From IMG/VR virus record IMGVR_UViG_3300035670_000187, positions 1 to 64,000 of that record: a DNA stretch of 64,000 nt. One strand, given 5' to 3'. Of this stretch, positions 1,101 to 57,854 are shown in pieces. Origin of the DNA: a virus. The number at the start of each line of letters is the position of its first letter. Position 1 is the first letter of the stretch. Made by a program: the position numbers and the translations under genes. The notes under the pieces were generated by a model, which saw nothing but the letters and a program-made list of their open reading frames with translations, was not told the DNA's origin and searched no databases.

Positions 1101-1127
1101 AGGGGGACTTCGGTCCCCCTCTTTTTT
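1101..1127 (+). terminator. Rho-independent terminator after gp32
   Basis: An 8-bp perfect stem (AGGGGGAC at 1101-1108 with GTCCCCCT at 1113-1120) is closed by a TTCG tetraloop and followed by a run of six T (1122-1127). It ends the gp32 transcript. The stop codon of the convergent minus-strand gene (1126-1128) lies in the T run. Read on the minus strand the hairpin lacks a T run, so it probably works mainly on the plus strand. Confidence 0.92.
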
Positions 1128-3609
1128 ATACTGTACCAATCGTTGTAAACGCCGAAGGATGAGCAAAGTCTTTTGCCAATGCACGCGCAAAAGAACTTTC
1201 AGAATCTCTAGTTGAAGCTGGAACTGCATTTGATGGCGGCATTGGTTTGGCTCCTTGAGATTGACCGCCCACAGGAACAGGAACAACAGTTGGTGCTGCA
1301 GATACCATCATTTCTTCTTTTGCACTTGTAACAGCTGTAGTTTGCTGTGCTACCATAGCTCCTGTTACTGGAGTTGGAGAAATAGGCGTAGCGGTGACTG
1401 CTGGTGGTGCAGTTACACTGGCAGCAACTCCAGGAGTTTCAGTTCTAGGTGGTGCAGCAGCAACAGCAGTACCCATTTCTGCTTGTTTAGCTGGTGGAGA
1501 AGCAATACCTGAACTTGGCGCTCTACCCGATTTAGGGTCAATTTCATTACCATTATTGCTTGCTACAATTGGCGCTCCTGGTTTATATGGATTATCAGGT
1601 GTGGCGCCACGTTTAGCAGTTTCAATGGGCTCAACGTGCCATGTTTCCCCAGGAACTGGACGAGTGAAACCATATTTTGCCATCAAACCTAATTCTATGG
1701 CTTTGTTTGCGTCAGTTGAATTGATGTCTATGGCTAGACCGCTTTCGTGACGACTTCTCCCTGGGGGTGCTGCTCTAGGCGCACCGTATTTGGCAAACAA
1801 TGCTGCTTGTTCTTCAGGAGAACGATATCCCGAATTGATTTGAATTTTTTGACCTGTCTTATTGAAATATTCTTTAGCAAGACCAGCCAATCTTTCTTTC
1901 ATTTGTGAGTTCAATCCATCTAGATTGATGCTAGAATCTTTTAGTCGAACATATTTTTTCAAATCTTCTGCACTAGCACCCGTTTCTGCTGGTGGTATGG
2001 CTCCAGGCATACTTGAAGACACACGAATAGGTGCTACTGCTGGCGCAGTTGTTGGTGGAGCCATAGATGATGTTGTTCCAGCAGCATTTGGAAAACTGGT
2101 TGCTGCTGGGGCAGGTTCTATTGAGGTTGGTGAAGTTGTTGGAGCAGCCTGAACTTCAGCATCAGCTTTTTTCTCTATGTCATCGGCATATAATTCTTGT
2201 TCAGCTTCTGACAATGCTGAAAATTCTTTCCATAATTTGTAAAGATCATAAGCGAGCCACAAACTACCAACAACTGTAACAGCTGCACTAATCCAACCAA
2301 CAAATGGTATTACAGCTAATCCTCCAGCTGCAGCTAAACGCACACCAACTTGAGCAAATAATTTGGGCGCACGTTTCTTCAAAAATCCCATAAAGAGATC
2401 CCAAGTTTTATTCTTGACTTTTTGAACAGTTTTGGTTTGGGCTATTTTTGTTACAGCTACAGCACCACCAACAGCACCAGCGATACCAGCACCAGTCGCA
2501 GCAGCTTGTATTTTCACATCTGTTTTTTGAGCAGTAATTTGTTCTTGAATTTCTTGTTTTTCTTCTGGCGTTTCCGCCATTGATGCTTGCTCTTTTAAGA
2601 ACTCTGGATCTTCAGAAACAAGATCCGGATCTCTAAAAGAATCCACTGCCATATATGCCAAACCACCGACAGCAGCACCACCCAATAAAGATCCGACGCC
2701 AAATCTACCTACACCACCACCTCTTCTGCCGACTGGACCTCTACGACGACGTTTTCTCTTGCCATCACCGCCGCCACCAATATCCAATAAGTCACTAAGT
2801 GCATCTGCACTAACAGCTTTCAGAATCAAATTTAGTTTATCATGAACATCAAATGGCTGCTTTTTCTCACCAACTGATTCAAGAATTTTCTTAATATCTT
2901 CTTGTAAATTTTCTTCTTCAATAAGCTCATCTACAACTTTAGGCGTCTCAGATATGGCACTTAACACTGGAGCAAATGGATCTTTTTCTTGCTGTAAAAC
3001 TTTACTCCCGAAATCTGTTCGAACAAATTCACCTGTGGCTGGATCTATTCTTCCACGTGGTTTTTTAGTTGCTGTTTGTTGCTGAGTTTGTTGAGCGTCA
3101 CCCCGCGCAGCTTTAGTCTTTGTTTTTTTCTCTTTCTTCACTTTAAATTTTTCAGCAAGTTCTTTTCTTTCTTCTTTGCTTACTCTTTTACCAAAAACTA
3201 AATCAGCGACTTGCGCTAATTCTTCACTACCCCCGAAAGCTGTTACAATCTTGCCAAAACGAGAACGCATTCCTGTTGTTGCAGCCTCATAATCCTCTTT
3301 GAGTTTATCTGCAGCTTTTAAACTTTGAAAAATACTTTTACCTTGTTCGCGAGCTTGATCAAAGGCTTCCTGTTGCAGTTCGTCTAGATCTCGTAAACCT
3401 CTAGTAGTTTTCTTTGTAACTTTTATAATTTGTAATAGTTGTTTTTTTTGTTCTTCGCTAAGATTTTGTTGCTCTAGAAGTGCTTTGAGGACGCTTTCCA
3501 TGTCCTCCTTTTCATCTGAAATTAAATCTTTAAGAGAAATGCTGCCATCACCTTTAATAAAGGCTTTAGCAAATCTGTCAGCTATAGATTGTTTTTTGGT
3601 TATTTTCAT
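1126..3609 (-). CDS. Probable tape-measure/tail protein with M15 (VanY-type) peptidase domain
   Basis: 827 aa. Residues 1-280 are charged, helical and coiled-coil-like. An Arg-rich patch (about 284-296) leads into three hydrophobic Gly/Ala-rich segments (about 304-323, 367-390, 421-456) of the kind found in tape-measure proteins. Residues 490-545 form a Pro/Ala/Thr linker. Residues about 550-665 form a peptidase M15 domain: SGYRSPEEQ (593-601), zinc ligands H621 and D628 in SRHESGLAIDIN, and H658 in WHVEP. The family cleaves peptidoglycan cross-links (D-Ala-D-Ala type). The C-terminus is Pro/Ala-rich and disordered. Its place directly after gp26 and gp51, sharing ATGA with gp51, suits the tape measure (T4 gp29 role, 590 aa there). 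A domain that digests peptidoglycan would replace the lysozyme missing from gp5 here. The peptidase call is firm; the tape-measure call is inferred. Confidence 0.75.
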   Translation of the reverse strand: MKITKKQSIADRFAKAFIKGDGSISLKDLISDEKEDMESVLKALLEQQNLSEEQKKQLLQIIKVTKKTTRGLRDLDELQQEAFDQAREQGKSIFQSLKAADKLKEDYEAATTGMRSRFGKIVTAFGGSEELAQVADLVFGKRVSKEERKELAEKFKVKKEKKTKTKAARGDAQQTQQQTATKKPRGRIDPATGEFVRTDFGSKVLQQEKDPFAPVLSAISETPKVVDELIEEENLQEDIKKILESVGEKKQPFDVHDKLNLILKAVSADALSDLLDIGGGGDGKRKRRRRGPVGRRGGGVGRFGVGSLLGGAAVGGLAYMAVDSFRDPDLVSEDPEFLKEQASMAETPEEKQEIQEQITAQKTDVKIQAAATGAGIAGAVGGAVAVTKIAQTKTVQKVKNKTWDLFMGFLKKRAPKLFAQVGVRLAAAGGLAVIPFVGWISAAVTVVGSLWLAYDLYKLWKEFSALSEAEQELYADDIEKKADAEVQAAPTTSPTSIEPAPAATSFPNAAGTTSSMAPPTTAPAVAPIRVSSSMPGAIPPAETGASAEDLKKYVRLKDSSINLDGLNSQMKERLAGLAKEYFNKTGQKIQINSGYRSPEEQAALFAKYGAPRAAPPGRSRHESGLAIDINSTDANKAIELGLMAKYGFTRPVPGETWHVEPIETAKRGATPDNPYKPGAPIVASNNGNEIDPKSGRAPSSGIASPPAKQAEMGTAVAAAPPRTETPGVAASVTAPPAVTATPISPTPVTGAMVAQQTTAVTSAKEEMMVSAAPTVVPVPVGGQSQGAKPMPPSNAVPASTRDSESSFARALAKDFAHPSAFTTIGTV

Positions 3610-3821
3610 CTTCTATTTTTTGACCTAACTGTCGATCTATTTTGCATTCTCGTTAATTCAATTCTTTCTTTCTCTTCCTTCAACCAATTCATGAGCATAG
3701 CCACATATGTTTGCCTCTCCCAAGGCAACATATTTTCAAGCTCACTCAAAGAGTACTTATGGTGCTGAATCAAACCAAAGTTGCAGTTAAAATAATTCTT
3801 CAAATTGTCATAACCAAACAT
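3606..3821 (-). CDS. 51: gp51-like baseplate hub assembly protein
   Basis: 71 aa. The motif HHKYSLSELENMLPWER followed by YVAMLMNWLKEEKERIE matches the short gp51-type hub assembly proteins of marine T4-like phages (T4 gp51 itself is longer). It should act off the virion, as a chaperone for hub or tape-measure assembly. Its ATG overlaps the gp26 stop (TAATG), and its own stop overlaps the next start (ATGA). No Shine-Dalgarno sequence lies at a usable distance from the ATG; the nearest, AAGGA, is 20 nt away but is well placed to stimulate frameshifting in gp26. It may therefore be made by translational coupling, as the second half of a gp26-gp51 frameshift fusion, or both. Confidence 0.72.
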   Translation of the reverse strand: MFGYDNLKNYFNCNFGLIQHHKYSLSELENMLPWERQTYVAMLMNWLKEEKERIELTRMQNRSTVRSKNRR

Positions 3822-4543
3822 TAACCGAAAAAATCGTCGATTCCTTGCACTCTAATAGTATGTAGATATCCACATTTATTACAAGTTACTTCTTTTTTCG
3901 ATTCTATGTATGGTAGTGTGTTGAAGAATTCTTTAAAAGCACCAACTTGATCTAAACTCAAGGAGCCTACGAATTCTTCTAGTTCTTCTCGAGTTATAGA
4001 ATCAGCATCATACTTTGAATTCTCATCAAAAATATAATCTAAGTGCTCTACAATCAATTCCATTATATCTTCTAAATTCGTTTCGTTTATAGCAATAGAA
4101 GTCGATGTGCTTAATGAAGGATACTTCAAACATACTCCAACTTTATCAGTCACCATAATTTTATTTGTATGACCTTTCGGTTCAATAAACTGAACTTCAT
4201 TTAGATCCACTTCAAACGCCATGTTTGCATCACATGGTTCATTTTCTACAACATTATTGCACTTGTAAATGAGTTCTAGATTTTCCCCCACCGACTTCAA
4301 GCGAAGATGAACAAAAATCATTTCTATGTCGAAGATAGGTAAATTGGCTACATCAAGTTCTTCTAGGCAACAATTATTGACGATTTGTTTTACTGTATCA
4401 AAAACTGTTGGTAGGTCGCTTGCTTCTTTAGCCATTAATAACAGCTTTTCTTCTTTTACCAGAAAAGGTCTAAACTTCACTTTCCTATTCAACGACTTCA
4501 AGTGTACATCGAATATAGGATATTCAATTTTAGGTAATGCCAT
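3821..4543 (-). CDS. 26: gp26-like baseplate hub assembly protein
   Basis: 240 aa (T4 gp26 is 208 aa). The N-terminal sequence (FDVHLKSLNRKVKFRPFLVKEEK) and the acidic helical middle match the T4-type baseplate protein family containing gp26. Two cysteine pairs (C95/C104 in YKCNN...EPC and C221/C224 in CNKC) look like a zinc ribbon. The protein is expected to help assemble the hub and tape-measure complex. The last codons (GAT TTT TTC GGT TAA) contain the slippery heptamer TTTTTTC, described separately; a -1 slip there would extend the protein into gp51. It lies 12 nt after the tail-tube-like gene in the same operon. Confidence 0.75.
   Translation of the reverse strand: MALPKIEYPIFDVHLKSLNRKVKFRPFLVKEEKLLLMAKEASDLPTVFDTVKQIVNNCCLEELDVANLPIFDIEMIFVHLRLKSVGENLELIYKCNNVVENEPCDANMAFEVDLNEVQFIEPKGHTNKIMVTDKVGVCLKYPSLSTSTSIAINETNLEDIMELIVEHLDYIFDENSKYDADSITREELEEFVGSLSLDQVGAFKEFFNTLPYIESKKEVTCNKCGYLHTIRVQGIDDFFG
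3827..3846 (-). promoter_or_regulatory. Candidate -1 programmed frameshift site joining gp26 to gp51
   Basis: On the minus strand T3833-C3827 reads T TTT TTC in the gp26 frame, a canonical X XXY YYZ slippery heptamer. Eight nt upstream is AAGGA (3846-3842), at the spacing of internal Shine-Dalgarno stimulators. After a -1 slip the ribosome bypasses the gp26 stop (3823-3821), reads Arg-Leu and continues exactly in the gp51 frame. This gives a fusion of about 312 aa (239 + 2 + 71). Lambda G/GT and P2 E/E+E' (slippery TTTTTTG) use the same design immediately before the tape-measure gene. Only the sequence geometry is seen here; actual slippage is inferred. Confidence 0.6.
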
Positions 4544-4555
4544 ATTTTCGCTCCA

Positions 4556-5410
4556 TTATGAGAATAATCTCTTCAATAAATCATTTCCTCTACGATTAAT
4601 TTCTTTATTAATTGCAGTTTTAAACGGATTTCTTTCAGCTTCATCAGCGTTAGGTTTAACACTATTTTGTAAATCGTTTACATTGAGCCATTTATCAAAT
4701 CTAAATCCAACTTGTAATCTGTGGATTTCATCAGAAGCCCAGCTAAGTTGTAGAGGATTTACTGTTGTTGGGAATGCATTTAAAAGCTGTACGCCATAAA
4801 TTTTTGTTCCATCAAGATCTGTTATGGAAAATGGTGTTTGTTCGCCAAACAATGCGTCTATTCCCTTACCTGCTAATCCTTTGAGTAAGTCTCCTTTGAG
4901 ACCATTTCCGAATTTACGACTTATAACACTGTCTGCTTTATATCGTGCAGCTTCACCTAAACCATCAACAATTGCATCCCCCAAAGTAGTTCTACCTCTA
5001 GAAACTCTTTGATCTAATGCAGCACCTTCGCTGTATTGAAAAATTGTAATGTTAGTTTGATAGTTTTGCTTGTACTGGACCAAGTATGAATTTTTAGGAA
5101 TGATGTAATCAATCCAGCTGTCAAATAGTTTCTTTTCCCAAAAATCTCCAGAACAAATGAAAGTCATTTGAATTTCGCTGAATGATGGAGTTGCTGCCAC
5201 ATAAGTTGGCGCACCATAGATTTTAGATTCAGATGTGTTTACTGCATATCCTGGAAGTTCAGCAGCTTCGCATTGTAACGCCAATTCTTCAGTACTACCT
5301 AATCCAGTAACTGCTGGTGGTAGGGCGATTCGAACCTCGAACTTTGAAGACTTAGCGTATCCGCCATGCTTGTCGAAATTCGTTATAAATTTGTTTACAT
5401 TAAATGCCAT
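4556..5410 (-). CDS. Tail-tube-like baseplate protein (gp54/gp19 type)
   Basis: 284 aa. The N-terminal half (MAFNVNKFITNF, then SKFEVRIALPP, then ALQCEAAELPGYAV, then QMTFICSGDFWEKKLFDSWID) has the layout of the contractile-tail tube fold seen in T4 gp19. The C-terminal part (YGVQLLNAFPTTVNPLQLSW) is also typical of it. At 284 aa it is longer than the tube subunit (T4 gp19, 163 aa) and nearer gp54 (320 aa), the protein that starts tube polymerisation on the baseplate. An insertion (about residues 135-200) separates the two halves. Its place in the gp4-gp26-gp51 operon, opposite gp48, supports the initiator role over the main tube subunit, but I cannot exclude the latter. Start and stop overlap or nearly touch the neighbouring genes. 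Confidence 0.65.
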   Translation of the reverse strand: MAFNVNKFITNFDKHGGYAKSSKFEVRIALPPAVTGLGSTEELALQCEAAELPGYAVNTSESKIYGAPTYVAATPSFSEIQMTFICSGDFWEKKLFDSWIDYIIPKNSYLVQYKQNYQTNITIFQYSEGAALDQRVSRGRTTLGDAIVDGLGEAARYKADSVISRKFGNGLKGDLLKGLAGKGIDALFGEQTPFSITDLDGTKIYGVQLLNAFPTTVNPLQLSWASDEIHRLQVGFRFDKWLNVNDLQNSVKPNADEAERNPFKTAINKEINRRGNDLLKRLFS

Positions 5411-20431: not shown

Positions 20432-23400
20432 ATGCAATTTAACGTTGACCCATATTACGACGATTTTGAGCAAAATGCATTAGATAATAACTATATGCGT
20501 CTTTTGTTCAAGCCTGGTTTTGCAGTTCAGGCTCGCGAATTAACGCAAATTCAGTCTATCCTTCAAAACCAAATTAAACAATTCGGCGATCATGTGTTTC
20601 AAGACGGATCACCTGTAATTGGCGGAAATCTTACCTTAGATAACAAAGTTCAATTTTTAAGATTAGAAGAAACTTTTAACAATGAAGACGTCGACGTTGA
20701 ACTCTTTAATGGAAAAGTAGTTCGTAGTCTAGATGGTACTGTACAAGCTAAAGTGTTAACGACCTTTTTCCCAACAGATGGTGTGCCAACGCTACTTGTA
20801 AAGTACATTACTGGTAATGAATTTACTGATGCATCAAACGTTCGCGTGGCTGGAACTACCACTGAAGCTAAAATGGTTTCAGCTAATTCAACAGGAGCTG
20901 GTTTAGTTTGCTCTATTAATGAAGGCGTGTTTTATGTTGATGGATTTTTCGTAAAAGTCAATGATCAAACAACTGCAGTTAATCCATATGGCGTGACTGC
21001 AAACGTAAAAATTGGTTTAGAAATTTCTGATGACATTGTTGACAGCGTCGTAGACACAACGCTATTAGATCCTGCACAAGGATCATTTAATTACCAAGCT
21101 CCTGGTGCTGATCGCTATCAATACAATCTAACGCTCACAACACGTCCACTTGATACTGCTGTTGATGAATCGCAGTTTTTTGAATTGATGCGTGTTGAAA
21201 ATGGTGTTATCACCAAGCAAGTTAAGTATCCAGTTTATGCAGAACTAGAAAAAACACTCGCTCGAAGAACCTTTGATGAATCTGGTGACTATGTCGTTCG
21301 ACCATTTCGTGCAACTATTAATGATGGTGCGAATGCTAACAATTATGTTCTTTCAGTAGAACCTGGTAAAGCCTATGTAAAAGGTTTTGAATTCGAAACC
21401 ATAGGAACGCTCAAAGTAACAGCACCAAAACCTAGAAGTGCTGCTGATATTAAATCTTTTGTTGATATCGATGTTGATACATCATATGGTAATTTTATCT
21501 ACGTTACTTCTTTACGCGGTTCTTCTAACGGTTTTATCAATATCGCTGCGTTAGAAAAAGTAGACGTTCACTTAGGCAAAAGTAGTTGTATTTTTACTAA
21601 CGGTGCAGGTAATGGAACGGCAAATGCATTTGTTTATGCTAATACTAAAATTGGTACAGCGCGTATTAAAAACATTGTAAGACAAAATCCGGATTTATTT
21701 AATACTACCACAGACTCAAATGGCGTCTATAAACTTTATTTGACTGATGTTAATATTCAACCTAAAGTATTGAAGGTTAAAGAAATCAGCCCTAATGCTC
21801 AAACTATTGTTTTAACAACTGACTTTTGCGCAAACGTTAACAATTTTATTAATGTTTCTGTGACTATTTTGCCAGTTCGTTTAGATCCAGTTGCCAACGT
21901 CAATGTAGCAAATGTCTTCATTAATTCATATCGTCTAAATGCTAACTCAGCTGTAGCAAACGTGTTTAATTCCAACGTTGCTCCTGGTAGCGTTATTCGT
22001 GTAGCTGATATGGTGCGTGAAGTTGTTTCAGTAAATACTTCAGGTGACTTCTTAACAGTAAATAGAGCATGGGATAAAACGATTGTCGCAACTAGCTCTA
22101 CAACAAATCCTCTTTCTGTTTTTGTCCAGTCCGCTTATACACAAAACGTTTCAGGTCAAAGTCGCGTAATTACTGCTGCAGCAAATAATGGTGGAGCTAA
22201 TTTACATTTTTATACTGATCGACCATTTGACAATGAAGGCGTCCCAGACGCAAACACTGTAGTGCAATTTAACTTTGGTGTTAAAGATGCTAAAAGTTTT
22301 TGCTCTGGTCCAGTAGTTTCTAACGGATTAGCATTGTTTGCCAATGCTACTATGAATGTTGCGTTGCAATCTACATTAATTACCAACGAATCATTTATAG
22401 ATGATCCAAAACGAAATCAGTTAATTTTTAAATTGCCTGCAACATTTGTAAGAAGAACTTCGCTTAACAACACTGACTATGTTCATAGTAAGTATATTGC
22501 AGATCGTTCTAATACAGGAAATCCTGGCGAATTTACAGTAGCGCAAGGTTCTGGTTTAGAAAACTTTGAAACTATTGCGTGGGCAGATTCAACCAGTGCA
22601 ATTCAAGATAATTTAATTTTTGTTGTGCGCGATGGCAGAGGGAATGTAAGTTATCCTAATGGATCAGTAGTTCAATTAACTGCAGCTAATGTAACGCTAT
22701 CAGGCTCTCCAGTAAATACAATTACAATAGATACTGGTGTACCTGATATTATTAAAGCAGATATTATTTTAAACGTTAAAGAAAATGATGCTGAGGATAA
22801 AATTCGTAGAAAAGTGTTCATGCAAAACACTCAACCTACAGTAGATCCATTCACATATCCTACATCTAATTCTTCAACATCAAATACTGAAGTTTCATTA
22901 CCAAACTTGGATCATGTTGCTTCTATTGATGTTGCAAATGGATTTATTTGGTTAACAAATCCAACATATAATGCTGTAAATCCAGGCGATTCTATTTCGC
23001 TATTTGTACCTGATGTTGTGCGTGTTCGTAGAGTCATAGCTGGTAACACAACTAATGTTCCAGATGCAGACAATGCAACAGATATTACAAATCGTTTCTT
23101 TATAGATTATGGGCAACGAGATGATAAGTACGAACACACTAAACTTGTACTAAGATCTGGATTTGATAGTCCGAATGCTAAACTTTTAGTTCATGTTGAT
23201 TTTTATCAACACATTTATGCTACTGGCGCTAATGTTTCATTCTTTTCAGCCGAATCATATGACCAAACACTCTATGATAATGGCTCTATTCCAATCTACA
23301 CTTCTCAAGATGGTACAATTTATTATCTTCGCGATTGTTTAGATTTTAGACCAACGCAGCCTATTGGCGATACAGCCGCATCATTTACAGTTCCAAATAT

Positions 23401-24703
23401 TCCAGCTCCAGATGATACAACAGAATTGTCTGTTGACTATTATTTACCTAGAATTGACAAACTTGTATTAAGTAAAGATAAAGAGTTTAGAGTCATCACT
23501 GGTAAATCAGCACCAAGACCTCTTCCACCAGAAGATCTTGATGACGCCATGACTCTCTACCAAATTAACGTTCCTGCATTTGGCGCAGATGTTCGTGAAT
23601 TTAATTTAAAATATGTAGACAATCGCCGCCTCACTATGCGTGATCTAGCTAACCTTCAAAAGAGAGTTGAAAGTCTTGAATTTTACACTTCGTTTAATAA
23701 TGTTGAATTGTTAGCATTAAGCGACAAAACAGCCTATGAAGATGGAACTGAAAAAGAAAAATTTGGTATAGTGGGTGAAAATTTCAGTAACTTTAATATT
23801 GCTGATTATAAGAGCCCAGAGTTTGGTGTTGCACTAGATAGTGGATTCATGATGCCATCTGCATTAACTGAAATTTATGGGTTTAGAAATATTGCTACAT
23901 CCTTCACCAAGAAAAATAAAAAGACTATCACGTTAAACTATACAGAAACGCCAGCAATTACACAAGGTGTGGCTTCTAATAATGCTGTTTCAGTGCAGCC
24001 ATTCCTATTTGGCTCGTTTAATGGCACACTAGAACTTGCACCTGAAACTGACTATTGGGTCAATGAGTCTTTGAAACCTGAAATTATTTCTGTTCCTGAA
24101 AGAATTATTGAACATCATCATGTGATTCGTGAAATCATCATTGAGCCCACACCACCTCCAACAATTATTAACAAGTATTACACAACGAACGTGGTGAATC
24201 AAATTATTACAGCACCAGGAAATGATCCTGTTGATCCACCACCTAGTGACAGACCACCACCTGATCCGCCACCATCGCCTCCTGTTGTTCCACCAACACC
24301 TGAACCACCAGTTCAGCCACCTCCGCCTCCGCCTCCGCCTCCGCCAGAGGAAGACCCTATCTACACGATACTTCCAGTTATAGAGCCTATTAAATTTGAA
24401 TTTGATCCATGTTTCTCATTCGGCGTCAATTTCACATTTGGTGTCACTGGTGCTGGAAGTAGACCTAATTGCGCTCACGGAGGAATGTGGGGTAAAGGTG
24501 GCTTAACTGATTTTTGGTTCCCACCAATTGATATAGATAAGAATATTGAACCAACTCCACCAGTGCTAGAAGCACCAAATCCAACCAAAACTACACCAAT
24601 TAATATCGTTGGTAGAGGCGGTGGCGGTGGCGATGTGCGCGGTGGTATTGGAGTTGGAAGAGCAGGTGATGATGCTTTAAATCGCGATTTTGGTTTTAAA
24701 TAA
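20432..24703 (+). CDS. DUF4815-type large virion structural protein with proline-rich tail
   Basis: 1423 aa. The N-terminus (FNVDPYYDDF, then NYMRLLFKPGFAVQARELTQ, then IQSILQNQIKQFGDHVF) is the hallmark of the DUF4815 phage proteins found right after gp8 in marine T4-like phages, where they are virion components, probably at the baseplate edge or fibre attachment. A copy of the wedge beta module is at about 498-549. A helix-rich KYVDNRRLTMRDLANLQKRVESLE segment lies near 1070. Residues about 1238-1308 are strongly Pro-rich, including a run of ten prolines just before EEDP. The tail after it is Gly-rich and ends in a basic and aromatic stretch. Function not established. Confidence 0.8.
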   Translation: MQFNVDPYYDDFEQNALDNNYMRLLFKPGFAVQARELTQIQSILQNQIKQFGDHVFQDGSPVIGGNLTLDNKVQFLRLEETFNNEDVDVELFNGKVVRSLDGTVQAKVLTTFFPTDGVPTLLVKYITGNEFTDASNVRVAGTTTEAKMVSANSTGAGLVCSINEGVFYVDGFFVKVNDQTTAVNPYGVTANVKIGLEISDDIVDSVVDTTLLDPAQGSFNYQAPGADRYQYNLTLTTRPLDTAVDESQFFELMRVENGVITKQVKYPVYAELEKTLARRTFDESGDYVVRPFRATINDGANANNYVLSVEPGKAYVKGFEFETIGTLKVTAPKPRSAADIKSFVDIDVDTSYGNFIYVTSLRGSSNGFINIAALEKVDVHLGKSSCIFTNGAGNGTANAFVYANTKIGTARIKNIVRQNPDLFNTTTDSNGVYKLYLTDVNIQPKVLKVKEISPNAQTIVLTTDFCANVNNFINVSVTILPVRLDPVANVNVANVFINSYRLNANSAVANVFNSNVAPGSVIRVADMVREVVSVNTSGDFLTVNRAWDKTIVATSSTTNPLSVFVQSAYTQNVSGQSRVITAAANNGGANLHFYTDRPFDNEGVPDANTVVQFNFGVKDAKSFCSGPVVSNGLALFANATMNVALQSTLITNESFIDDPKRNQLIFKLPATFVRRTSLNNTDYVHSKYIADRSNTGNPGEFTVAQGSGLENFETIAWADSTSAIQDNLIFVVRDGRGNVSYPNGSVVQLTAANVTLSGSPVNTITIDTGVPDIIKADIILNVKENDAEDKIRRKVFMQNTQPTVDPFTYPTSNSSTSNTEVSLPNLDHVASIDVANGFIWLTNPTYNAVNPGDSISLFVPDVVRVRRVIAGNTTNVPDADNATDITNRFFIDYGQRDDKYEHTKLVLRSGFDSPNAKLLVHVDFYQHIYATGANVSFFSAESYDQTLYDNGSIPIYTSQDGTIYYLRDCLDFRPTQPIGDTAASFTVPNIPAPDDTTELSVDYYLPRIDKLVLSKDKEFRVITGKSAPRPLPPEDLDDAMTLYQINVPAFGADVREFNLKYVDNRRLTMRDLANLQKRVESLEFYTSFNNVELLALSDKTAYEDGTEKEKFGIVGENFSNFNIADYKSPEFGVALDSGFMMPSALTEIYGFRNIATSFTKKNKKTITLNYTETPAITQGVASNNAVSVQPFLFGSFNGTLELAPETDYWVNESLKPEIISVPERIIEHHHVIREIIIEPTPPPTIINKYYTTNVVNQIITAPGNDPVDPPPSDRPPPDPPPSPPVVPPTPEPPVQPPPPPPPPPPEEDPIYTILPVIEPIKFEFDPCFSFGVNFTFGVTGAGSRPNCAHGGMWGKGGLTDFWFPPIDIDKNIEPTPPVLEAPNPTKTTPINIVGRGGGGGDVRGGIGVGRAGDDALNRDFGFK

Positions 24704-24733
24704 AGTATTAGCAACAATTAGGTAACATGAGTT

Positions 24734-27700
24734 ATGCCAAATAATCTAACAACAAATTTCGGAAAAGTTGTCGTAGACACAAGTCTAGTTCCATACATCA
24801 GAAGTCGTGATGTGGAATTTACTGCACGAAATTTAAAGCCATATAAATTGTCAAAGATTTTCTTTGATGATATTGCTGTAAATGCATTTTGTCAGGTCGG
24901 CAACAAAATTGTTTTAGATTCTAAAAAAATTGTAACCGTTTCAAGAAATAACTCAACAACTATTGCTACAAGCGATATAGCTTATCAAGGCACTTCAAAT
25001 ACTGTTAACACTTTTAATGCTGTTGTTGATGCATGGTATACAAGTAATTCTACTATTGTTCTTCGTTCATTATCTGGCAATTTCGATGAAGAAGCTCAAT
25101 TGTTTATTGAAGCTGCAACATCTCACGATGGACTAACTATTGGCGATACTTTTGCTAACTGTAATGTCAGCACAGTAATTAATTTCAACACTTCCGACAC
25201 ATTTCCGCCAGGAGAAGGTATTCGTTGCCCACAAGGCGGCAACGTTTATGCCAAAGTATTGGCGACATCAGGCGAAAACGTTCTTTACTTGAATCAAAAT
25301 TTTGTTACATTAAACGTAACAGCTAATGGTAGTGATGTTCTTTCTTCATTAACGCAAGATTATAAGTTTGGTGACGTTGTATATCAAACTGCTGATGGTA
25401 GCCAAAATTACTATGCAGCTACATTTAGAGGCACTGTTGAATACTATAACGTTGAAAGCCCAGGAACCTTAGCAATTAAACCAATCGCTGGATCATTGCG
25501 CAGTAATGCAACCAGTACTAGCGCAAACGCTAATGTTCGTATTTGGAATTCCTCTAACTCTGCTTCTAAACCACTTTGTGCGCAATCGTTTAATGCTAAT
25601 AAATTTGAAAGTGGTAATGTTGTAAGCGTTTTAAATTCTGCCAATACCATCAAAATTACTTCTTATATTCACAGATCAGGTGTCTTAGCTAATACGCTAA
25701 ATCCTAACACTTCTTCTGTAATTTTATCAGTAAACGATGCATCTAATCATCCTACACTAAATGCTAACTTGATTTATTTTACATCAGGAACAGGTGTAGG
25801 CGAAGTAAAACGTATTATTAGTATCAGCGGTAGAGAGGCAACTCTTAACTCCGCTTTAACCTCTGGCTATGATTCCGCTACACATTATTCTGTTGGCAAT
25901 TTTATAGTTGACGAATATGGTACTGAAACGGGTATTTTTCATATTCCATCATTCCCAGGATATAAGTTTAAAACAGGAAATCGTTTATTAACGATTACTG
26001 ACACAAATACTTACAATGATCCAGACTATGGGATGAGAGCTGCAGCTACTTATGCTGCTTCTGGTTTGTTGAAGACAACACAAAATATTCAAACAACGCC
26101 AACTCTTCCACCATTTCCAGAAGTTGATGCCGACAATCTTGTTGCTCCAATTAATCCTGCTGATAGATCATACAGCTCAAGTGGTTCTAAGAGTCCAATT
26201 ACAGGTTCAACAGCCTCCACTACACCGAGAATTCCATTGGGCGATGGTTTGTCTCAAACATTCTTCTCGCCTAAACCACTCAGCAACAAACAAGATTATG
26301 GTATTTTCGTGACATCGGTGGATCTCTTCTTTAGAAGTAAACCTAGTGTTGCACTAGGCAGTATGCAGTTACCTGTAACCGTAAAAATCGCTGAAGTTTC
26401 TAACGGTTATCCAACTAAGAAATATTTGGCAGCAAAGACAATTCAAGCCAAAGATGTAAAAATCTCAAGTATTCCTAGCGTGACAGACGCATCAACTCTT
26501 ACTAAGTTTACATTTGACGATCCTGTTTATTTGGAACCTAATAGAGAATATGCGCTTATTATTGGATCAGATTCTCCAGATTATGAATTATTCATTGCTG
26601 AATTAGGACAAGAAGTGTTGGGTGCTGCGCAGCCAAGAAGAATTTCAGAACAACCTTACGCTGGTTCACTATTCCGTTCGCAAAATAGTTCTACTTGGAC
26701 AGCGTATCAAAATCAAGATTTGATGTTTAGAATCAATAAAGCTGTTTTTGCGACTTCAGGTACAGCAACGTTTAACTTGGAAGAAGCACCAGTAACAACG
26801 ACTGCAGTTGATAAATTTGTTCTATCATCCGCTGATCTTCGTTTCCCTGTTGGCGCAGTAGATTATCGTGTTCGTGGCGTTTATACCGCAGACTCTACCA
26901 ATGATTCTGGAGTTTTGTCTGTTCCATATTCAGTTATAGAATATGGAGTATTGCAAGATAAATCTAGTGCTGTAAGCACCAACAGAAGAAAAATGATCGG
27001 GGGCAATTCTAACAGTGTTGTTACAACTGTCGAAATGTCTTCTTCAGATCCAGATGTTTCTCCTGTAGTTAATTTAGAACGTTTAGCTCTTACTACGTTC
27101 CTTTATAACATTAATAATGCTGGATTATCGAATAATGTAATAGCGATAACCAACAAAGGTTCAGGTTATTCTAACACTGGTCCAGCAAATACTTCTAAAG
27201 TTAATATGAGTGGAAACTCTTTTAATGTGGTAATTGGAAGTTCTAACACAACATTGAATAACTTCGCGCAAATTTATCGTGAAACTTATTACCCATACCC
27301 TACCTACAATGTCGGTTTCTATAACTTAGAAATAACAAATTCAGGAAACGACAGTGGCTCGGGAGCAACAGGTTTTGCTGTCGCTAATACTGACGGATTG
27401 AACACTGTCAATCATATTGTAATGATGACCCCTGGAAGTGGTTATCTAGAAACACCTACAGCAACAGTTGCTGGTGGCGCTAATACTGTATCGAATACTC
27501 AAGCCTTTGTTACATGTTCTGGTGAAACAAGTAAATCTGGTGGTAATATCCGTGCTAAGTATATCACACGCGAAATTGTTTTGGAAGATGGATTTGAATC
27601 AGGTGACATTCGCGTGTATATGGATGCCATTCGTCCAGCGCCTGTCGATATTCAAGTTTACTATAAAGTTTTATCTGGCGATGATGTTGATCGTATTTCA

Positions 27701-27946
27701 GATAAATCATGGCGTCGTATGGAAAAATTAAAAGATATCTATTCGCGTAATGCTAGAACTTTAATTGGATTAGAATTTAGACCATCCATAACTGAGAATA
27801 GAATTTCATACACTGAAAATGGCGTTTCATATCCTATCGGCGGTAAATTTAAACAATTCCAAATTAAAGTTTGCTTACTCAGCCCAGACCCAGCTTTGGT
27901 TCCTAAAATTCGTAATCTTCGTATTATAGCAACGCCTGAGGGATAA
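24734..27946 (+). CDS. Large virion structural protein, partner of the DUF4815-type protein
   Basis: 1070 aa. The N-terminus (TSLVPYIRSRDVEFTARNLKPY, split by KLSKIFFDD) and C-terminus (REIVLEDGFESGDIRVYMDA, YKVLSGDDVDRISDKSW, KIRNLRIIATPEG) are conserved in a protein that follows the DUF4815 gene in marine T4-like phages. The middle (about 490-640) has QTFFSPKPLSNKQDYGIFVTS and PVYLEPNREYALII, which resemble beta-sandwich segments. GSGY modules occur at about 806-925. It is probably a peripheral baseplate protein or fibre anchor; no T4 counterpart is recognised. It lies 30 nt after its partner and 1 nt before the next gene. Confidence 0.75.
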   Translation: MPNNLTTNFGKVVVDTSLVPYIRSRDVEFTARNLKPYKLSKIFFDDIAVNAFCQVGNKIVLDSKKIVTVSRNNSTTIATSDIAYQGTSNTVNTFNAVVDAWYTSNSTIVLRSLSGNFDEEAQLFIEAATSHDGLTIGDTFANCNVSTVINFNTSDTFPPGEGIRCPQGGNVYAKVLATSGENVLYLNQNFVTLNVTANGSDVLSSLTQDYKFGDVVYQTADGSQNYYAATFRGTVEYYNVESPGTLAIKPIAGSLRSNATSTSANANVRIWNSSNSASKPLCAQSFNANKFESGNVVSVLNSANTIKITSYIHRSGVLANTLNPNTSSVILSVNDASNHPTLNANLIYFTSGTGVGEVKRIISISGREATLNSALTSGYDSATHYSVGNFIVDEYGTETGIFHIPSFPGYKFKTGNRLLTITDTNTYNDPDYGMRAAATYAASGLLKTTQNIQTTPTLPPFPEVDADNLVAPINPADRSYSSSGSKSPITGSTASTTPRIPLGDGLSQTFFSPKPLSNKQDYGIFVTSVDLFFRSKPSVALGSMQLPVTVKIAEVSNGYPTKKYLAAKTIQAKDVKISSIPSVTDASTLTKFTFDDPVYLEPNREYALIIGSDSPDYELFIAELGQEVLGAAQPRRISEQPYAGSLFRSQNSSTWTAYQNQDLMFRINKAVFATSGTATFNLEEAPVTTTAVDKFVLSSADLRFPVGAVDYRVRGVYTADSTNDSGVLSVPYSVIEYGVLQDKSSAVSTNRRKMIGGNSNSVVTTVEMSSSDPDVSPVVNLERLALTTFLYNINNAGLSNNVIAITNKGSGYSNTGPANTSKVNMSGNSFNVVIGSSNTTLNNFAQIYRETYYPYPTYNVGFYNLEITNSGNDSGSGATGFAVANTDGLNTVNHIVMMTPGSGYLETPTATVAGGANTVSNTQAFVTCSGETSKSGGNIRAKYITREIVLEDGFESGDIRVYMDAIRPAPVDIQVYYKVLSGDDVDRISDKSWRRMEKLKDIYSRNARTLIGLEFRPSITENRISYTENGVSYPIGGKFKQFQIKVCLLSPDPALVPKIRNLRIIATPEG

Positions 27947-52747: not shown

Positions 52748-55700
52748 ATGACAACAATCGTATCGATACAACAAGGTGGAACTGGCGCGAATAACGTGGC
52801 AGATGCTATCAGTGCACTCGGTGTGCTCGCAAACACTGGTGGGGAATTCACTGGTGAGGTCAGTTTCACTGGATCTAATACAAGCATCAATGTATCGAAT
52901 GATGCAATTATTTCTGGTAGTGTGACAATTGGTCAAAATACTAACATCTCTGGAAATGCGACGATCGATGGTCGCGGTTTATTCGGCGATGGAATCGAAG
53001 AACATTTTACTGAAAAAGATATTGATGAAAGTACAATAACCGTTGCTGGATTTGCGAATACGAATGCAGCTGTTGAAATCGCAGTGATTAATAAGGCTAA
53101 TGGTACACTTTCTTATGCTGAGTTTATTGCTCTGAACGACAAAGCTAATCAAGAGCAAGGTTGGATTTCGATTGGTGTCAACAGTTCTGAATATAATGAC
53201 CCAGAGTATACACTCACTGGTCCTGATGATGGCTATTTGCTTTTCGAAGCACCATTAGGAACAAATGCGAATGGCGATTTGATTGTCGGAACAGGTTCCT
53301 ATGGTCAAAATAATCGCATTGTTTTGGCTGCAGGTGGATTTGCTCCCACTGATGCACAGATGACCATTGCTCCTGCTGATCTCAAAACAGCAGTGATCGT
53401 CAATTCTGAACTGACTTCAAACGTTGCATTACTCACAACTGATGAAACGCACACCTTCTTAGCAAATGACGAAGTTATCATTGCGAGTGTTGGTGCTCCG
53501 TATGACGGACAGTTCACAATCACAAATGTATCAAGTAATACAATCAGCTACAATGTAACATCTAATAATATTGGTTCAGCTGCAGCTACTGGAACAGCAA
53601 CTCAGTATCTTCCATTTAACAAGGGCACAGTAGAACTCACAGCTCAATTATTTGTCGGTGAAAATGCTAAGTCAACTTTCACTACTGCTAATTTAACACT
53701 CGATAATACTTTTGCTATTCCACTCGGCGTTGTTGTCGACAACGATGGTCCTGGTCAAGTGTCAATGTTCAATAAGAGCAATGGCGCTTTTGCATATTCT
53801 GAATTCATTGCTCAAAATGATGCTGCTGACGCAGACATGGGCTGGGTTTCTTTTGGTATTAACAGCTCGAATTACGATGACCCTGAGTTCCCAATTACGA
53901 AAGCTGATGACGCCTATATTCTTTACGAACCACCAGCGAATACAACGGGTGACGGCGACTTTATTATTGGTACAGGAACCAATGGTCAGAAAAATAGATT
54001 GATCTTCGCAGCACAAGGTTTTGATGAAGCGAATGCTCAGATGATCATTACGCCTGATGAGTCTGTACGAATTTCTATCAATACAGATGCAACTTCATCA
54101 AATACTGGCGCACTTCAGGTTGCTGGTGGAGTTGGTATTGAGGGTTCATTGTTCGTTCAAGGCAATCAAACCATTCAAGGCGATCTAATTGTCAACGGAT
54201 CGCAAGTAACTCAAAGCATTCAAAGCGTTGCTGCTTCTGGACCAATTTCATTGGTTGGTGATGGTAATATTGCTAACACCTGGGATTTTGGTATTGTGGG
54301 CGTTTATGCTAATAATAGAACTCCGACACTAGAAGGTGTAACAAATAAATCTCTTGCAAATAATATTGCAACCTTAACAACAGCAAATAACCATAGTTTT
54401 GTAATTGAAGATTATGTTAATGTAAGTAGTGTAGATACTATCTTTAATGGCACATACCGATTAACTGGAGTTACGTCAAACACTATTAGCTATTTTAAAC
54501 TAGCAAATAATGTTACATCTACAGCTGCAAGTGGTAACGTAACATCATCAGTTCGTGCAACTTACACTGGCGTTCTTAAAGATACAGCTAATGCAACTTG
54601 GAAGTTGTTATCTAACATTGAACGACGTCCAGATTTTAATGCTAATTTAACCAATGCAGTTCTTGATAGTCTTCGTGTCTCAACAATTAATGCAGATAGT
54701 TTTGTAACTAGCGCGGGATTGAATGTAACTGATCAAGCAAATACTGCCTATGCTCAAGCTAATGCTGCATATGGGCAAGCTAATACTGCATATGGACAGG
54801 CTAATGACGCTTATTCGCAAGCAAATACTGCTTATGGGCAGGCTAATACTGCTTATGGTCAAGCGAATCTAGCTTATTCTCAGGCAAATACTGCTCGCAA
54901 TCAAGCCAACACTGCTTATGGACAAGCCAACGCAGCATATGATCAAGCCAACTCAGCGTTTGCTGCTGCAAACAATCGAGTGTTGAAAGCTGGCGATACC
55001 ATGACTGGATTGTTGAACGTTGCGAATAATCTGGTGGTCACTGGGAATGTAGGGATTGGAACTGCATCGCCTAATTCTAGATTAGATGTTAGAGGGCAAG
55101 TTATTCTTGGCAATGCTGGTAATAGTGCCAATATTGCAAACTTAATTTCTGGAACACCTCCTCAACTTGTTGCTGGATGGACCATCCCTGCTATTACTTG
55201 GAGTCCAGCTGCTACGATTGAGGCAGTGTTCGCGCGCGATGGTGATATGGGAATTGATATTCTTGCTGGCGATACAAGTAGTTCGCTCATTAACTTTTCC
55301 GATACAAACGATGAAGATGTTGGTCAAATAGAATACGATCACGCTACAGATTATATGCGTTTTCGTGTTAATGCTGGAGAGCGATTGCGAATTGACTCCT
55401 CTGGCAACGTCGGCATCGGAACAACAAATCCATCCGTCAAACTTCATGTCGTTGGTTCAAGTATTCTTGCAAATAACACTTCTATAGATCCTGATTCATA
55501 CGCAAATCAAATCGTTGCTGGTGCAATCGCTGATGGTAGCGGATCATTTGGATTAACTTCTGCTATTGGCGGTAATGCTGGAACTGGCGATTCCTGGGCT
55601 ATTGGACATAATGGAAGTGGACTTTTTATTGGTATGGGCAATGGTTCTGCTGATAATTCAATGCAAACTTATATGCAGTTTGATCCAAATAGAAACTTGT

Positions 55701-57832
55701 ATCTAGTTCCTGATGGCGGAAATGTGGGGATTGGTTCTGCAATACCAACGACAAAGTTAGATATTAATTTTTCTAATGCTGGAACTTATGCATCTGGTGT
55801 TTCAAATAATGGAATAAGAATTTATAACACGTCAACAGCCACAAATCAATATGTTGGATTAATTTTTACAGGTGAACCAACAGATGGAAACGCTGGATTA
55901 GCCACAATTTATGGTATTACTGTTGGCTCAGGTAGTATGGATATGGCGTTCAGCACTAGAAATAGTGCAACATTGGCAGAACGCATGCGCCTCACCTCTG
56001 CAGGTTTTGTTGGCATTGGAACGACTTCACCGTCAATAAATTTCCATATCGCTGGTAATAATGGCAATTCTGTAGGCTCATCGACTTTTTGGAATTTCAA
56101 TTTTGTTGGACAAGAAATACAAAATGCAAGTAATACAACTGGAACTGTTGCAGGTTTGGCTCTTATTGGCGGATCATCAAGATCAGCTGTTGCAGCAATT
56201 GGTGGTATATTAGAAAGCACATCTTTGAGTGCACTCGGATTTTTCACAGGTGGTAGCGGAGTTTCTGGTGGAACAGTACCAGAGCGCATGAGAATCACAA
56301 GCGCTGGCAATGTTGGAATTGGAACCACACCAACAGCAAGTAACGGCATTCTACAAATAGGTCAAGTTCCAGACGGCACTTCTTCAAGCATCGGATTCCC
56401 TAATGGCGATAACGCTGTGATATCAGCAAGATACAGTTTAGTGTTCCAGATCAATCATGACAATAATCAATCTGGCAGAGTTTATAGTTGGAAAACAGGC
56501 GGTAAAGGATATAGTGACGGCACAGATTTAATGACGTTGACTTCGGCTGGTAATCTTGGCGTTGGAACCAGCGGTCCTAACGCAAGACTGCATGTTAGAG
56601 AAAGCGGAATTACTGCAGCTGCAATTTCAACTGGTTGGCCAGCATTTAATGCTGAAAGTGCAGCGCAATCAAGATACGTGTTAGATTTAGATGCGGGTGG
56701 AAATGGTGATGTCGGCACAGGAGGAACTGGTGCATCAGCCACATTAATAATAGGAAATTATTTTGACGCTCGCGGAATTATTACTATGCGAGGTGCAGGT
56801 GGCGCGAGTCCATCTGATCAAGGACAGGGATATGGAAAAGATTTAATGGTCAAAGCTGGAAACAGCGATAATGGAAATGGATTAATTGGTGGTCGCCTAT
56901 TCCTTGCTGGTGGTTCTGGATATTCTGGAAATGCATTTGGCACAAATTATGGTGCTGTGATACTGCAACCAAATAGCTCGAGAACAGGAAGAGTAGGTAT
57001 TGGAACCACACAACCACCGCAAAAAGTATTAGATGTTTCTGGAACTACTGGCATTATTGCTTCTTTTGGCGGTCCATTCGGTCCTGGAGATTTTCTAGGA
57101 TTTCATTTTGGATATTCAGAAACCGCATACGGTAATGATGCATATAAAAAATCTGCATTAGTATTTGAAAGAACCGACAATAATAATCAAGGCGGCAACG
57201 CCAGCGGAAAAATTCACTTTTTATTAGCAAATTATAGTAGTTCTAGTGCAACATCATTAAATGATTCTGTAATGACGATCGATAGTGATGCGAATGGAAC
57301 TCAAGGTTCAGTACGTGTTGGTATCGGTACTCGTAGTCCAACAAGTACGTTGCAAATTAATGGATCTTTGGCTAAATCTTCTGGTTCATTTAAAATCGAT
57401 CATCCACTGCCTGAAAAATCTAATACTCATTACTTAGTACATTCATTTATTGAAGGACCACAAGCTGATCTAATATACCGAGGTAGAATTGAACTAGAAA
57501 ATGGAACAGCTGTAGTCAATATCGATGTTGCATCTGGAATGTCAGAAGGTACTTTTGTTGCTCTTTGTAGAGATGTTCAATGTTTTACATCAAATGAAAC
57601 AACATGGGATGCTGTTCGTGGTTTTGTAAACGGAAATATTTTAACTATTGAATCTCAAAATAGCACTTCTAATGCAACTATATCCTGGATGGTTATTGGT
57701 GAACGTCAAGATAAACATATGTTAGACACTGAATGGACAGACGAAAATGGTAAAATTGTGGTTGAACCGTTGAAAGAAACACCTAATATAAATGTAAGTA
57801 TAGATGTAAACGCGCAAGCGAATACAAAATAA
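52748..57832 (+). CDS. Giant tail-fibre protein with heptad stalk and KIDHPLP head
   Basis: 1694 aa, the largest gene here. The N-terminus VSIQQGGTGANNVADAISAL is the attachment motif. Residues about 82-640 are the shared duplicated block (YNDPEYTLTGPDDGYL, YDDPEFPITKADDAYI). Residues 662-738 are eleven heptads of the form AYGQANT, a probable trimeric coiled coil. KAGDTMTGLLNVANNLVVTG then leads into a shaft with many VGIGTT.P repeats. The C-terminal head (from about 1535: FKIDHPLPEKSNTHYLVHSF, EGPQADLIYRGRIEL, VQCFTSNETTWDAVRG, SWMVIGERQDKHM) is a head found in many aquatic phage fibres. Preceded by a late promoter. Confidence 0.8.
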   Translation: MTTIVSIQQGGTGANNVADAISALGVLANTGGEFTGEVSFTGSNTSINVSNDAIISGSVTIGQNTNISGNATIDGRGLFGDGIEEHFTEKDIDESTITVAGFANTNAAVEIAVINKANGTLSYAEFIALNDKANQEQGWISIGVNSSEYNDPEYTLTGPDDGYLLFEAPLGTNANGDLIVGTGSYGQNNRIVLAAGGFAPTDAQMTIAPADLKTAVIVNSELTSNVALLTTDETHTFLANDEVIIASVGAPYDGQFTITNVSSNTISYNVTSNNIGSAAATGTATQYLPFNKGTVELTAQLFVGENAKSTFTTANLTLDNTFAIPLGVVVDNDGPGQVSMFNKSNGAFAYSEFIAQNDAADADMGWVSFGINSSNYDDPEFPITKADDAYILYEPPANTTGDGDFIIGTGTNGQKNRLIFAAQGFDEANAQMIITPDESVRISINTDATSSNTGALQVAGGVGIEGSLFVQGNQTIQGDLIVNGSQVTQSIQSVAASGPISLVGDGNIANTWDFGIVGVYANNRTPTLEGVTNKSLANNIATLTTANNHSFVIEDYVNVSSVDTIFNGTYRLTGVTSNTISYFKLANNVTSTAASGNVTSSVRATYTGVLKDTANATWKLLSNIERRPDFNANLTNAVLDSLRVSTINADSFVTSAGLNVTDQANTAYAQANAAYGQANTAYGQANDAYSQANTAYGQANTAYGQANLAYSQANTARNQANTAYGQANAAYDQANSAFAAANNRVLKAGDTMTGLLNVANNLVVTGNVGIGTASPNSRLDVRGQVILGNAGNSANIANLISGTPPQLVAGWTIPAITWSPAATIEAVFARDGDMGIDILAGDTSSSLINFSDTNDEDVGQIEYDHATDYMRFRVNAGERLRIDSSGNVGIGTTNPSVKLHVVGSSILANNTSIDPDSYANQIVAGAIADGSGSFGLTSAIGGNAGTGDSWAIGHNGSGLFIGMGNGSADNSMQTYMQFDPNRNLYLVPDGGNVGIGSAIPTTKLDINFSNAGTYASGVSNNGIRIYNTSTATNQYVGLIFTGEPTDGNAGLATIYGITVGSGSMDMAFSTRNSATLAERMRLTSAGFVGIGTTSPSINFHIAGNNGNSVGSSTFWNFNFVGQEIQNASNTTGTVAGLALIGGSSRSAVAAIGGILESTSLSALGFFTGGSGVSGGTVPERMRITSAGNVGIGTTPTASNGILQIGQVPDGTSSSIGFPNGDNAVISARYSLVFQINHDNNQSGRVYSWKTGGKGYSDGTDLMTLTSAGNLGVGTSGPNARLHVRESGITAAAISTGWPAFNAESAAQSRYVLDLDAGGNGDVGTGGTGASATLIIGNYFDARGIITMRGAGGASPSDQGQGYGKDLMVKAGNSDNGNGLIGGRLFLAGGSGYSGNAFGTNYGAVILQPNSSRTGRVGIGTTQPPQKVLDVSGTTGIIASFGGPFGPGDFLGFHFGYSETAYGNDAYKKSALVFERTDNNNQGGNASGKIHFLLANYSSSSATSLNDSVMTIDSDANGTQGSVRVGIGTRSPTSTLQINGSLAKSSGSFKIDHPLPEKSNTHYLVHSFIEGPQADLIYRGRIELENGTAVVNIDVASGMSEGTFVALCRDVQCFTSNETTWDAVRGFVNGNILTIESQNSTSNATISWMVIGERQDKHMLDTEWTDENGKIVVEPLKETPNINVSIDVNAQANTK
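54731..54961 (+). repeat. 21-bp heptad repeat array (AYGQANT), 11 units
   Basis: Eleven 21-bp units encode the heptad xQANxAY without interruption. Units differ in synonymous positions, for example GGGCAAGCTAATACTGC against GGACAGGCTAATGACGC. A related array lies at 58302-58616. Confidence 0.88.
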
Positions 57833-57835
57833 ATA
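57828..57835 (+). promoter_or_regulatory. Late-type promoter AATAAATA
   Basis: AATAAATA overlaps the stop codon of the upstream fibre (57830-57832) and ends 19 nt before the 57855 start, the same arrangement as before the other giant fibres. Confidence 0.6.
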
Positions 57836-57854
57836 ATCCTAAAAGAGAATCTGA

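Follow-up and report, generated by a model that had tools for sequence, protein, structure and literature searches.

gp26 and gp51 as one tail-assembly chaperone gene with a probable programmed −1 frameshift in an uncultivated T4-like phage

The adjoining genes gp26 and gp51 of an uncultivated T4-like phage very probably constitute a single tail-assembly chaperone (TAC) gene that is expressed through programmed −1 ribosomal frameshifting. The stretch analyzed here, referred to as the window, is 64 kb out of the 65.7-kb IMG/VR virus record IMGVR_UViG_3300035670_000187, and both genes are encoded on its minus strand. It is proposed that most ribosomes would stop after gp26 and release a short form of 240 aa, and that a minority would move back by one nucleotide at the heptamer T TTT TTC, where tRNA-Phe would re-pair from UUU UUC to UUU UUU with the aid of pairing between an upstream AAGGA and the 16S rRNA. 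The slipped ribosomes would produce a 312-aa long form that carries the gp51 tail. By analogy with lambda gpG and gpGT, the short form probably coats the tape measure protein encoded next door and the tail of the long form probably recruits the tube or the baseplate hub. The architecture of the site, its conservation, the selection on its codons and the correspondence of the fusion to T4 gp51 are seen directly in the sequences; the occurrence of slippage, its frequency and the chaperone role are what we infer from them.

The gp26-gp51 junction and its conservation

An earlier note on this DNA had claimed that the gp26 frame ends in GAT TTT TTC GGT TAA, that this end contains the heptamer T TTT TTC in the gp26 phase (3833-3827) and that an AAGGA precedes the heptamer by 8 nt, and these details proved exact base for base. 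The minus-strand letters of the junction are CAAGGAATCGACGATTTTTTCGGTTAATG. The note had also claimed that the −1 frame passes through two codons into the gp51 ATG to give a fusion of about 312 aa. This was confirmed by reading the sequence: the codons past the heptamer are CGG and TTA, the ATG that follows overlaps the gp26 stop, the −1 translation runs F F R L M F G Y... and the length of the fusion is 239 + 2 + 71 = 312 aa. Counted from the gp26 stop, no stop codon interrupts the −1 frame between −28 and +215 nt. The claim that gp51 lacks a usable ribosome-binding site holds as well, as the AAGGA is ~20 nt from the gp51 ATG and is therefore too distant to be its ribosome-binding site. Six T followed by T, C or A is found 54 times on the two strands of the window and nine of these copies are in phase within open reading frames (ORFs) of at least 100 aa; of these nine, only the copy at the end of gp26 combines a gene end with a long −1 continuation (71 codons past the stop).

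The window gp26 matches PF12322 (E 3e-55) and columns 5-232 of the 282 columns of phrog_150 (E 1e-59) in the Pfam and PHROG profile searches, and gp51 matches phrog_634 (E 1e-22) as well as columns 239-277 of phrog_150, which come straight after the part covered by gp26. The AlphaFold2 model of gp26 has a pLDDT of 91.9 and a pTM of 0.85, and the Foldseek matches of this predicted fold are gp26 proteins of T4-like phages. Sequence and fold searches of gp26 against solved structures returned weak matches only, for example to proteasome subunits, that were judged to be chance, and a weak Pfam match of gp51 to Stealth_CR2 (E 0.008, below the cut-off) was dismissed in the same way. The features of the region are listed in Table 1.

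Table 1. Features of the gp26-gp51 region and its flanking genes in the window
Feature	Position	Strand	Remarks
gp26 ORF, short form of the chaperone (TAC-N)	3821..4543	-	240 aa; PF12322, phrog_150
gp51 ORF, −1 frame, C-terminal extension of the long form (TAC-C)	3606..3821	-	71 aa; phrog_634
Slippery heptamer T TTT TTC	3827..3833	-	in phase with gp26; one sense codon (GGT) before TAA
AAGGA, Shine-Dalgarno-like element, likely frameshift stimulator	3842..3846	-	8 nt upstream of the heptamer
TAATG overlap of gp26 stop and gp51 ATG, possible minor re-initiation site	3819..3823	-	not conserved in most relatives
Predicted frameshift fusion gp26-gp51 (TAC-NC)	3609..4543	-	312 aa; slip at 3827-3833
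Tail-tube-like protein (gp19/gp54 type), directly upstream	4556..5410	-	284 aa; phrog_45 tail tube, E 4e-31
Probable tape measure protein with M15/VanY peptidase domain, directly downstream	1126..3609	-	827 aa; PF02557, E 8e-10

Relatives were sampled from IMG/VR and from annotated phages, giving 98 gp26 loci that are mostly 33-49% identical to the window gp26 and that include marine and other cyanophages, a Sinorhizobium phage, a Stenotrophomonas phage, Aeh1, a KVP40 relative, a Klebsiella jumbo phage and others. The earlier note had staked its reading on the persistence of the heptamer, the −1 phase and the upstream Shine-Dalgarno (SD)-like element in relatives, and these are kept. An in-phase T TTT TT(C/T/A) is found at the same gp26 junction in 95 of the 98 loci (TTC in 70, TTT in 19 and TTA in 6), one codon before the gp26 stop in 81 of the 95, and this conservation settles that the presence of the heptamer at the end of gp26 is far beyond chance. 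The −1 frame is open through a gp51-like ORF in the frameshift-type loci. Only 20 of the 183 other Phe-Phe pairs in the same loci (11%) are slippery. The codon that precedes the Phe-Phe pair ends in T in all 95 heptamer loci, for which synonymous codon choice gives a chance of ~1e-20 under independence of the loci, an assumption that does not hold. Nominal probabilities of this kind overstate the case because the loci are related; the divergence among them is nonetheless large.

In Klebsiella jumbo phage KP13-7 (358 kb; L021 3166-3384), which has a distant gp26 relative, an in-phase T TTT TTC near the end of that gene is followed by a −1 frame open into a gp51-like tail, and the tail is unannotated in the record.

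The SD-like element upstream of the heptamer is under synonymous selection. Anti-SD pairing is strongest where the pairing window ends 5-8 nt upstream of the heptamer, and across the 95 loci the mean best anti-SD energy is -6.08 kcal/mol versus -4.71 +/- 0.11 kcal/mol for synonymous recodings, with the window itself at -5.4. Folding downstream of the site in the relatives also exceeds the synonymous null (z -1.12 +/- 0.17, versus -0.13 +/- 0.13 for a control stretch), and hairpins such as CACTCTTCC...GGAAGAGT are found there in the marine cyanophage clade.

Relation to T4 and to other tail-assembly chaperones

Profile comparisons identify T4 gp51 as the long form, a gp26-like domain followed by the gp51 tail, encoded as its own gene, and T4 gp26 as the short form. 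PF12322 is present in both T4 proteins, and T4 gp51 (249 aa) matches it over residues 1-201 and phrog_150 over residues 3-248, which makes T4 gp51 collinear with the 312-aa fusion of the window. In hhalign comparisons, T4-type gp51 aligns with gp26 over residues 6-201 (probability 97.6) and its C-terminus, residues 200-246, aligns with the small gp51 (probability 93.0); by these alignments, the small gp51 ORF of the window matches only the end of T4 gp51. An AlphaFold model of T4-type gp51 has its elements in much the same order as gp26, plus C-terminal helices.

Short and long forms with a common N-terminal domain are thus encoded through a −1 frameshift site in the window, whereas in T4 they are separate, divergent genes, with gene 25 after gene 26 and gene 51 divergent. 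The heptamer is lost in T4 gp26; T4-type gp26 in several phages still ends in GLKEFF, with the non-slippery codons GAG TTC TTT. The earlier note had described the separate genes of T4 as a split version of the fusion. Its reading of gp26 and gp51 as the T4-like counterparts of such chaperones is supported, but T4 gp51 is a continuous protein with both the gp26-like domain and the tail, so the two T4 genes are not simply the halves of a split gene. In a tree of the gp26 family, T4-type gp26 and the N-terminal part of gp51 form one clade each. Its branches are too long to tell whether the T4 duplication arose within the T4 lineage.

The abstract of a 2022 paper on these proteins reportedly names T4 genes 26 and 51 and states that several T4-like groups frameshift. 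The paper, by Vladimirov, Gautam and Davidson (Virology 2022, 566:9-15), concerns the tail assembly chaperones of T4-like phages and, as far as it is represented in PMC10885494 and PMC12846349, it assigns gp26 as TAC-N and the gp51 tail as TAC-C, with a poly-T −1 frameshift in some T4-like groups and separate short and long genes in T4-type phages. On that partial account, the chaperone frameshift of T4-like phages was already reported in 2022 and the present analysis is an independent rediscovery in a new uncultivated phage. It adds statistics on the heptamer, the start codons, the SD-like element and the hairpins over ~100 loci; those on start codons, codon selection and hairpins strengthen the 2022 idea.

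The earlier note had also presented gp26 and gp51 as counterparts of lambda G/GT and P2 E/E+E'. The correspondence is in gene order and presumed mechanism, and sequence kinship to lambda G was not found. As proposed for the window, lambda has a short form and a long form made by −1 frameshifting, and G/GT is flanked by V, which encodes the tail tube, and H, which encodes the tape measure; the two systems differ in having no detectable sequence homology. The slippery sequence differs as well, being GGGAAAG in lambda. In P2, the −1 frameshift of E and E+E' lies just before the tape measure gene T and uses a T-run heptamer (TTTTTTG, as the earlier note states). P2 E, a 276-nt ORF, is far shorter than the window gp26, and the two are likened here by gene order and mechanism. 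A −1 shift is also described for the tail assembly chaperone of Pakpunavirus/Vandenendeviridae, where it takes place at a GTTTTT motif and the −1 frame is open in every genome examined in that study (PMC12846349); these phages belong to a different lineage and are likened to the window by mechanism.

Neighbouring genes and competing readings

The gene order in the window is tube-like gene, TAC-N, TAC-C and a long ORF. This 827-aa ORF, which overlaps gp51 by 4 nt and carries a hydrophobic segment, is probably the tape measure, as judged from its position and character. The ORFs downstream of gp51 in the relatives share its position, are ~450-950 aa when complete and have hydrophobic segments like it, and their sequences are very variable. 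Four of these counterparts were tested against PHROGs and only that of S-CREM1 matches tape-measure families (E 5e-9 and weaker). The tape measure suggested by the earlier note is therefore a probable one, from position, length and hydrophobic segments and not from proven homology. The S-CREM1 counterpart is annotated as an M15 family metallopeptidase, and the VanY/M15 domain in the window's ORF (E 8e-10) suggests a possible part in cell-wall cleavage during DNA entry.

Two other regions of the window contain very large ORFs. Adjacent ORFs of 1423 and 1070 aa at 20432-27946, separated by a 30-nt gap, match columns 6-1113 and 1247-1591 of phrog_358 (unknown function, 2056 columns), and from these matches the pair looks as if a giant virion protein had been split into two genes. 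Two further ORFs of 1694 and 1438 aa (52748-62171) follow a run of tail-fibre genes and have no Pfam match above the cut-off.

Several results weigh against a frameshifted chaperone. The ATG at the stop overlap of the window could allow some free gp51 to be made by re-initiation, and the case for a frameshift product in this phage rests on its sequence. There is no downstream hairpin in the window, where the folding z values against synonymous recodings are +0.64 and +0.25. hhalign of gp26 against lambda gpG gives a probability of 0.3, with no sequence homology detected, and a fold search of gp26 against solved structures gives no match at E <= 0.001. Neither the downstream ORF and T4 gp29 nor the counterparts of this ORF among the relatives can be aligned with one another; unalignable sequence is common for tape measures. 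Finally, the canonical heptamer is absent from Ackermannviridae and from one group of Vibrio phages. In the Ackermannviridae relatives (L112-L129) and in L019, gp26 ends in ATT TTC AT(C/T) TAA with no perfect heptamer, the full Ackermannviridae end being GAR ATT TTC ATY TAA; L017 has GTT TTC and the Vibrio phage L015 has CTT TTC in place of the heptamer. In Ackermannviridae only the final few codons of gp26 have an open −1 frame, and in loci of this type the −1 ORF at the stop overlap starts with ATG in some and with ATT (AUU) in most. The long form of Ackermannviridae may be made by a single-codon slip or from an AUU start.

An unlikely reading, and the best placed of the alternatives, accepts the frameshift and takes its products to be baseplate hub assembly factors that are mechanistically unrelated to lambda G/GT. 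T4 gp26 and gp51 are classically placed in baseplate hub assembly and are listed as hub assembly chaperones, and tail assembly needs gp51 although the particle does not contain it (PMC3004832); the lack of sequence homology to lambda G and of a solved-structure match agrees with such a view. The adjoining tube-like gene and long, fast-evolving ORF speak instead for a chaperone of the lambda kind, as do the same short/long architecture and −1 device, and the 2022 paper, as cited by later work, names gp26 and gp51 as the tail assembly chaperones of T4-like phages. Moreover, the T4 tape measure gp29 is itself a hub component (PMC3004832), so hub assembly and tape-measure chaperoning may coincide. 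That gp51 is needed for assembly yet absent from the T4 particle fits a chaperone function by analogy.

It is quite improbable that gp51 is instead a separate protein made by stop-start coupling at TAATG, with the T-run being incidental. The ATG overlaps the gp26 stop in the window and in ~10 of 96 relatives, and gp51 is annotated as its own gene in most of the database records viewed; in the S-CREM1, P-RSM4 and P-TIM68 records its annotated start lies past the gp26 stop. However, most relatives have no equivalent ATG. A usable −1 ORF is present in 96 loci, and in 76 of them the gp51 frame has its first ATG at +23 or later, mostly at or inside the conserved domain and frequently at +53, within NFALMQHHKY; the TAATG start of the window is therefore not a general device. 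No ATG, GTG or TTG start is present up to +24 in 44 of the 96, so that frameshifting is the obvious route for those loci. The nearly invariant heptamer, the lack of a ribosome-binding site at a usable distance and the continuous fusion of both parts in T4 gp51 also argue against a separate protein.

Annotation of the tail varies among the annotated phages L015, L016, L018 and L019: it is absent in Aeh1 and cut to an internal ORF in Vibrio D503 and phi-pp2. The AG3 record labels it as having 'no identifiable ribosome-binding site'.

A −1 shift arising from slippage of RNA polymerase on the T-run is scarcely credible: a homopolymer run exists and a few relatives have 8-9 T, but most loci keep the run to six T, it invariably falls in frame as X XXY YYZ, C occupies the seventh position in 70 of 95 loci and G in none, and a selected upstream SD-like element makes sense only for ribosomes.

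Meaning for T4-like phages

Atkins 2016 described chaperone frameshifting as widespread and conserved in long-tailed phages 'except T4' (PMC5009743). The relatives of T4 itself carry the hallmarks of frameshifting, against this view, and gp51, the 'hub assembly catalyst' of T4, is the gp26 protein in its long version. This explains a finding by Sullivan 2010 that cyanophage gp51 lacks the first ~200 residues, leaving ~20% of T4 gp51 (PMC3037559): the cyanophage gene looked truncated because T4 gp51 is the long form. In practical terms, a joined coding sequence is the fitting annotation for gp51 in such genomes.

We give roughly even weight to a wider reading, in which frameshifting would be the general mode for making the long chaperone across T4-like phages, and in the marine cyanophage clade it would be doubly stimulated, by the SD-like element upstream and by a hairpin downstream. 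The 'gp51 gene' of cyanophages would then not be a gene, the two-gene layout of T4 would be a derived exception and Ackermannviridae would use a degenerate site (ATT TTC, short of a perfect heptamer) or AUU re-initiation.

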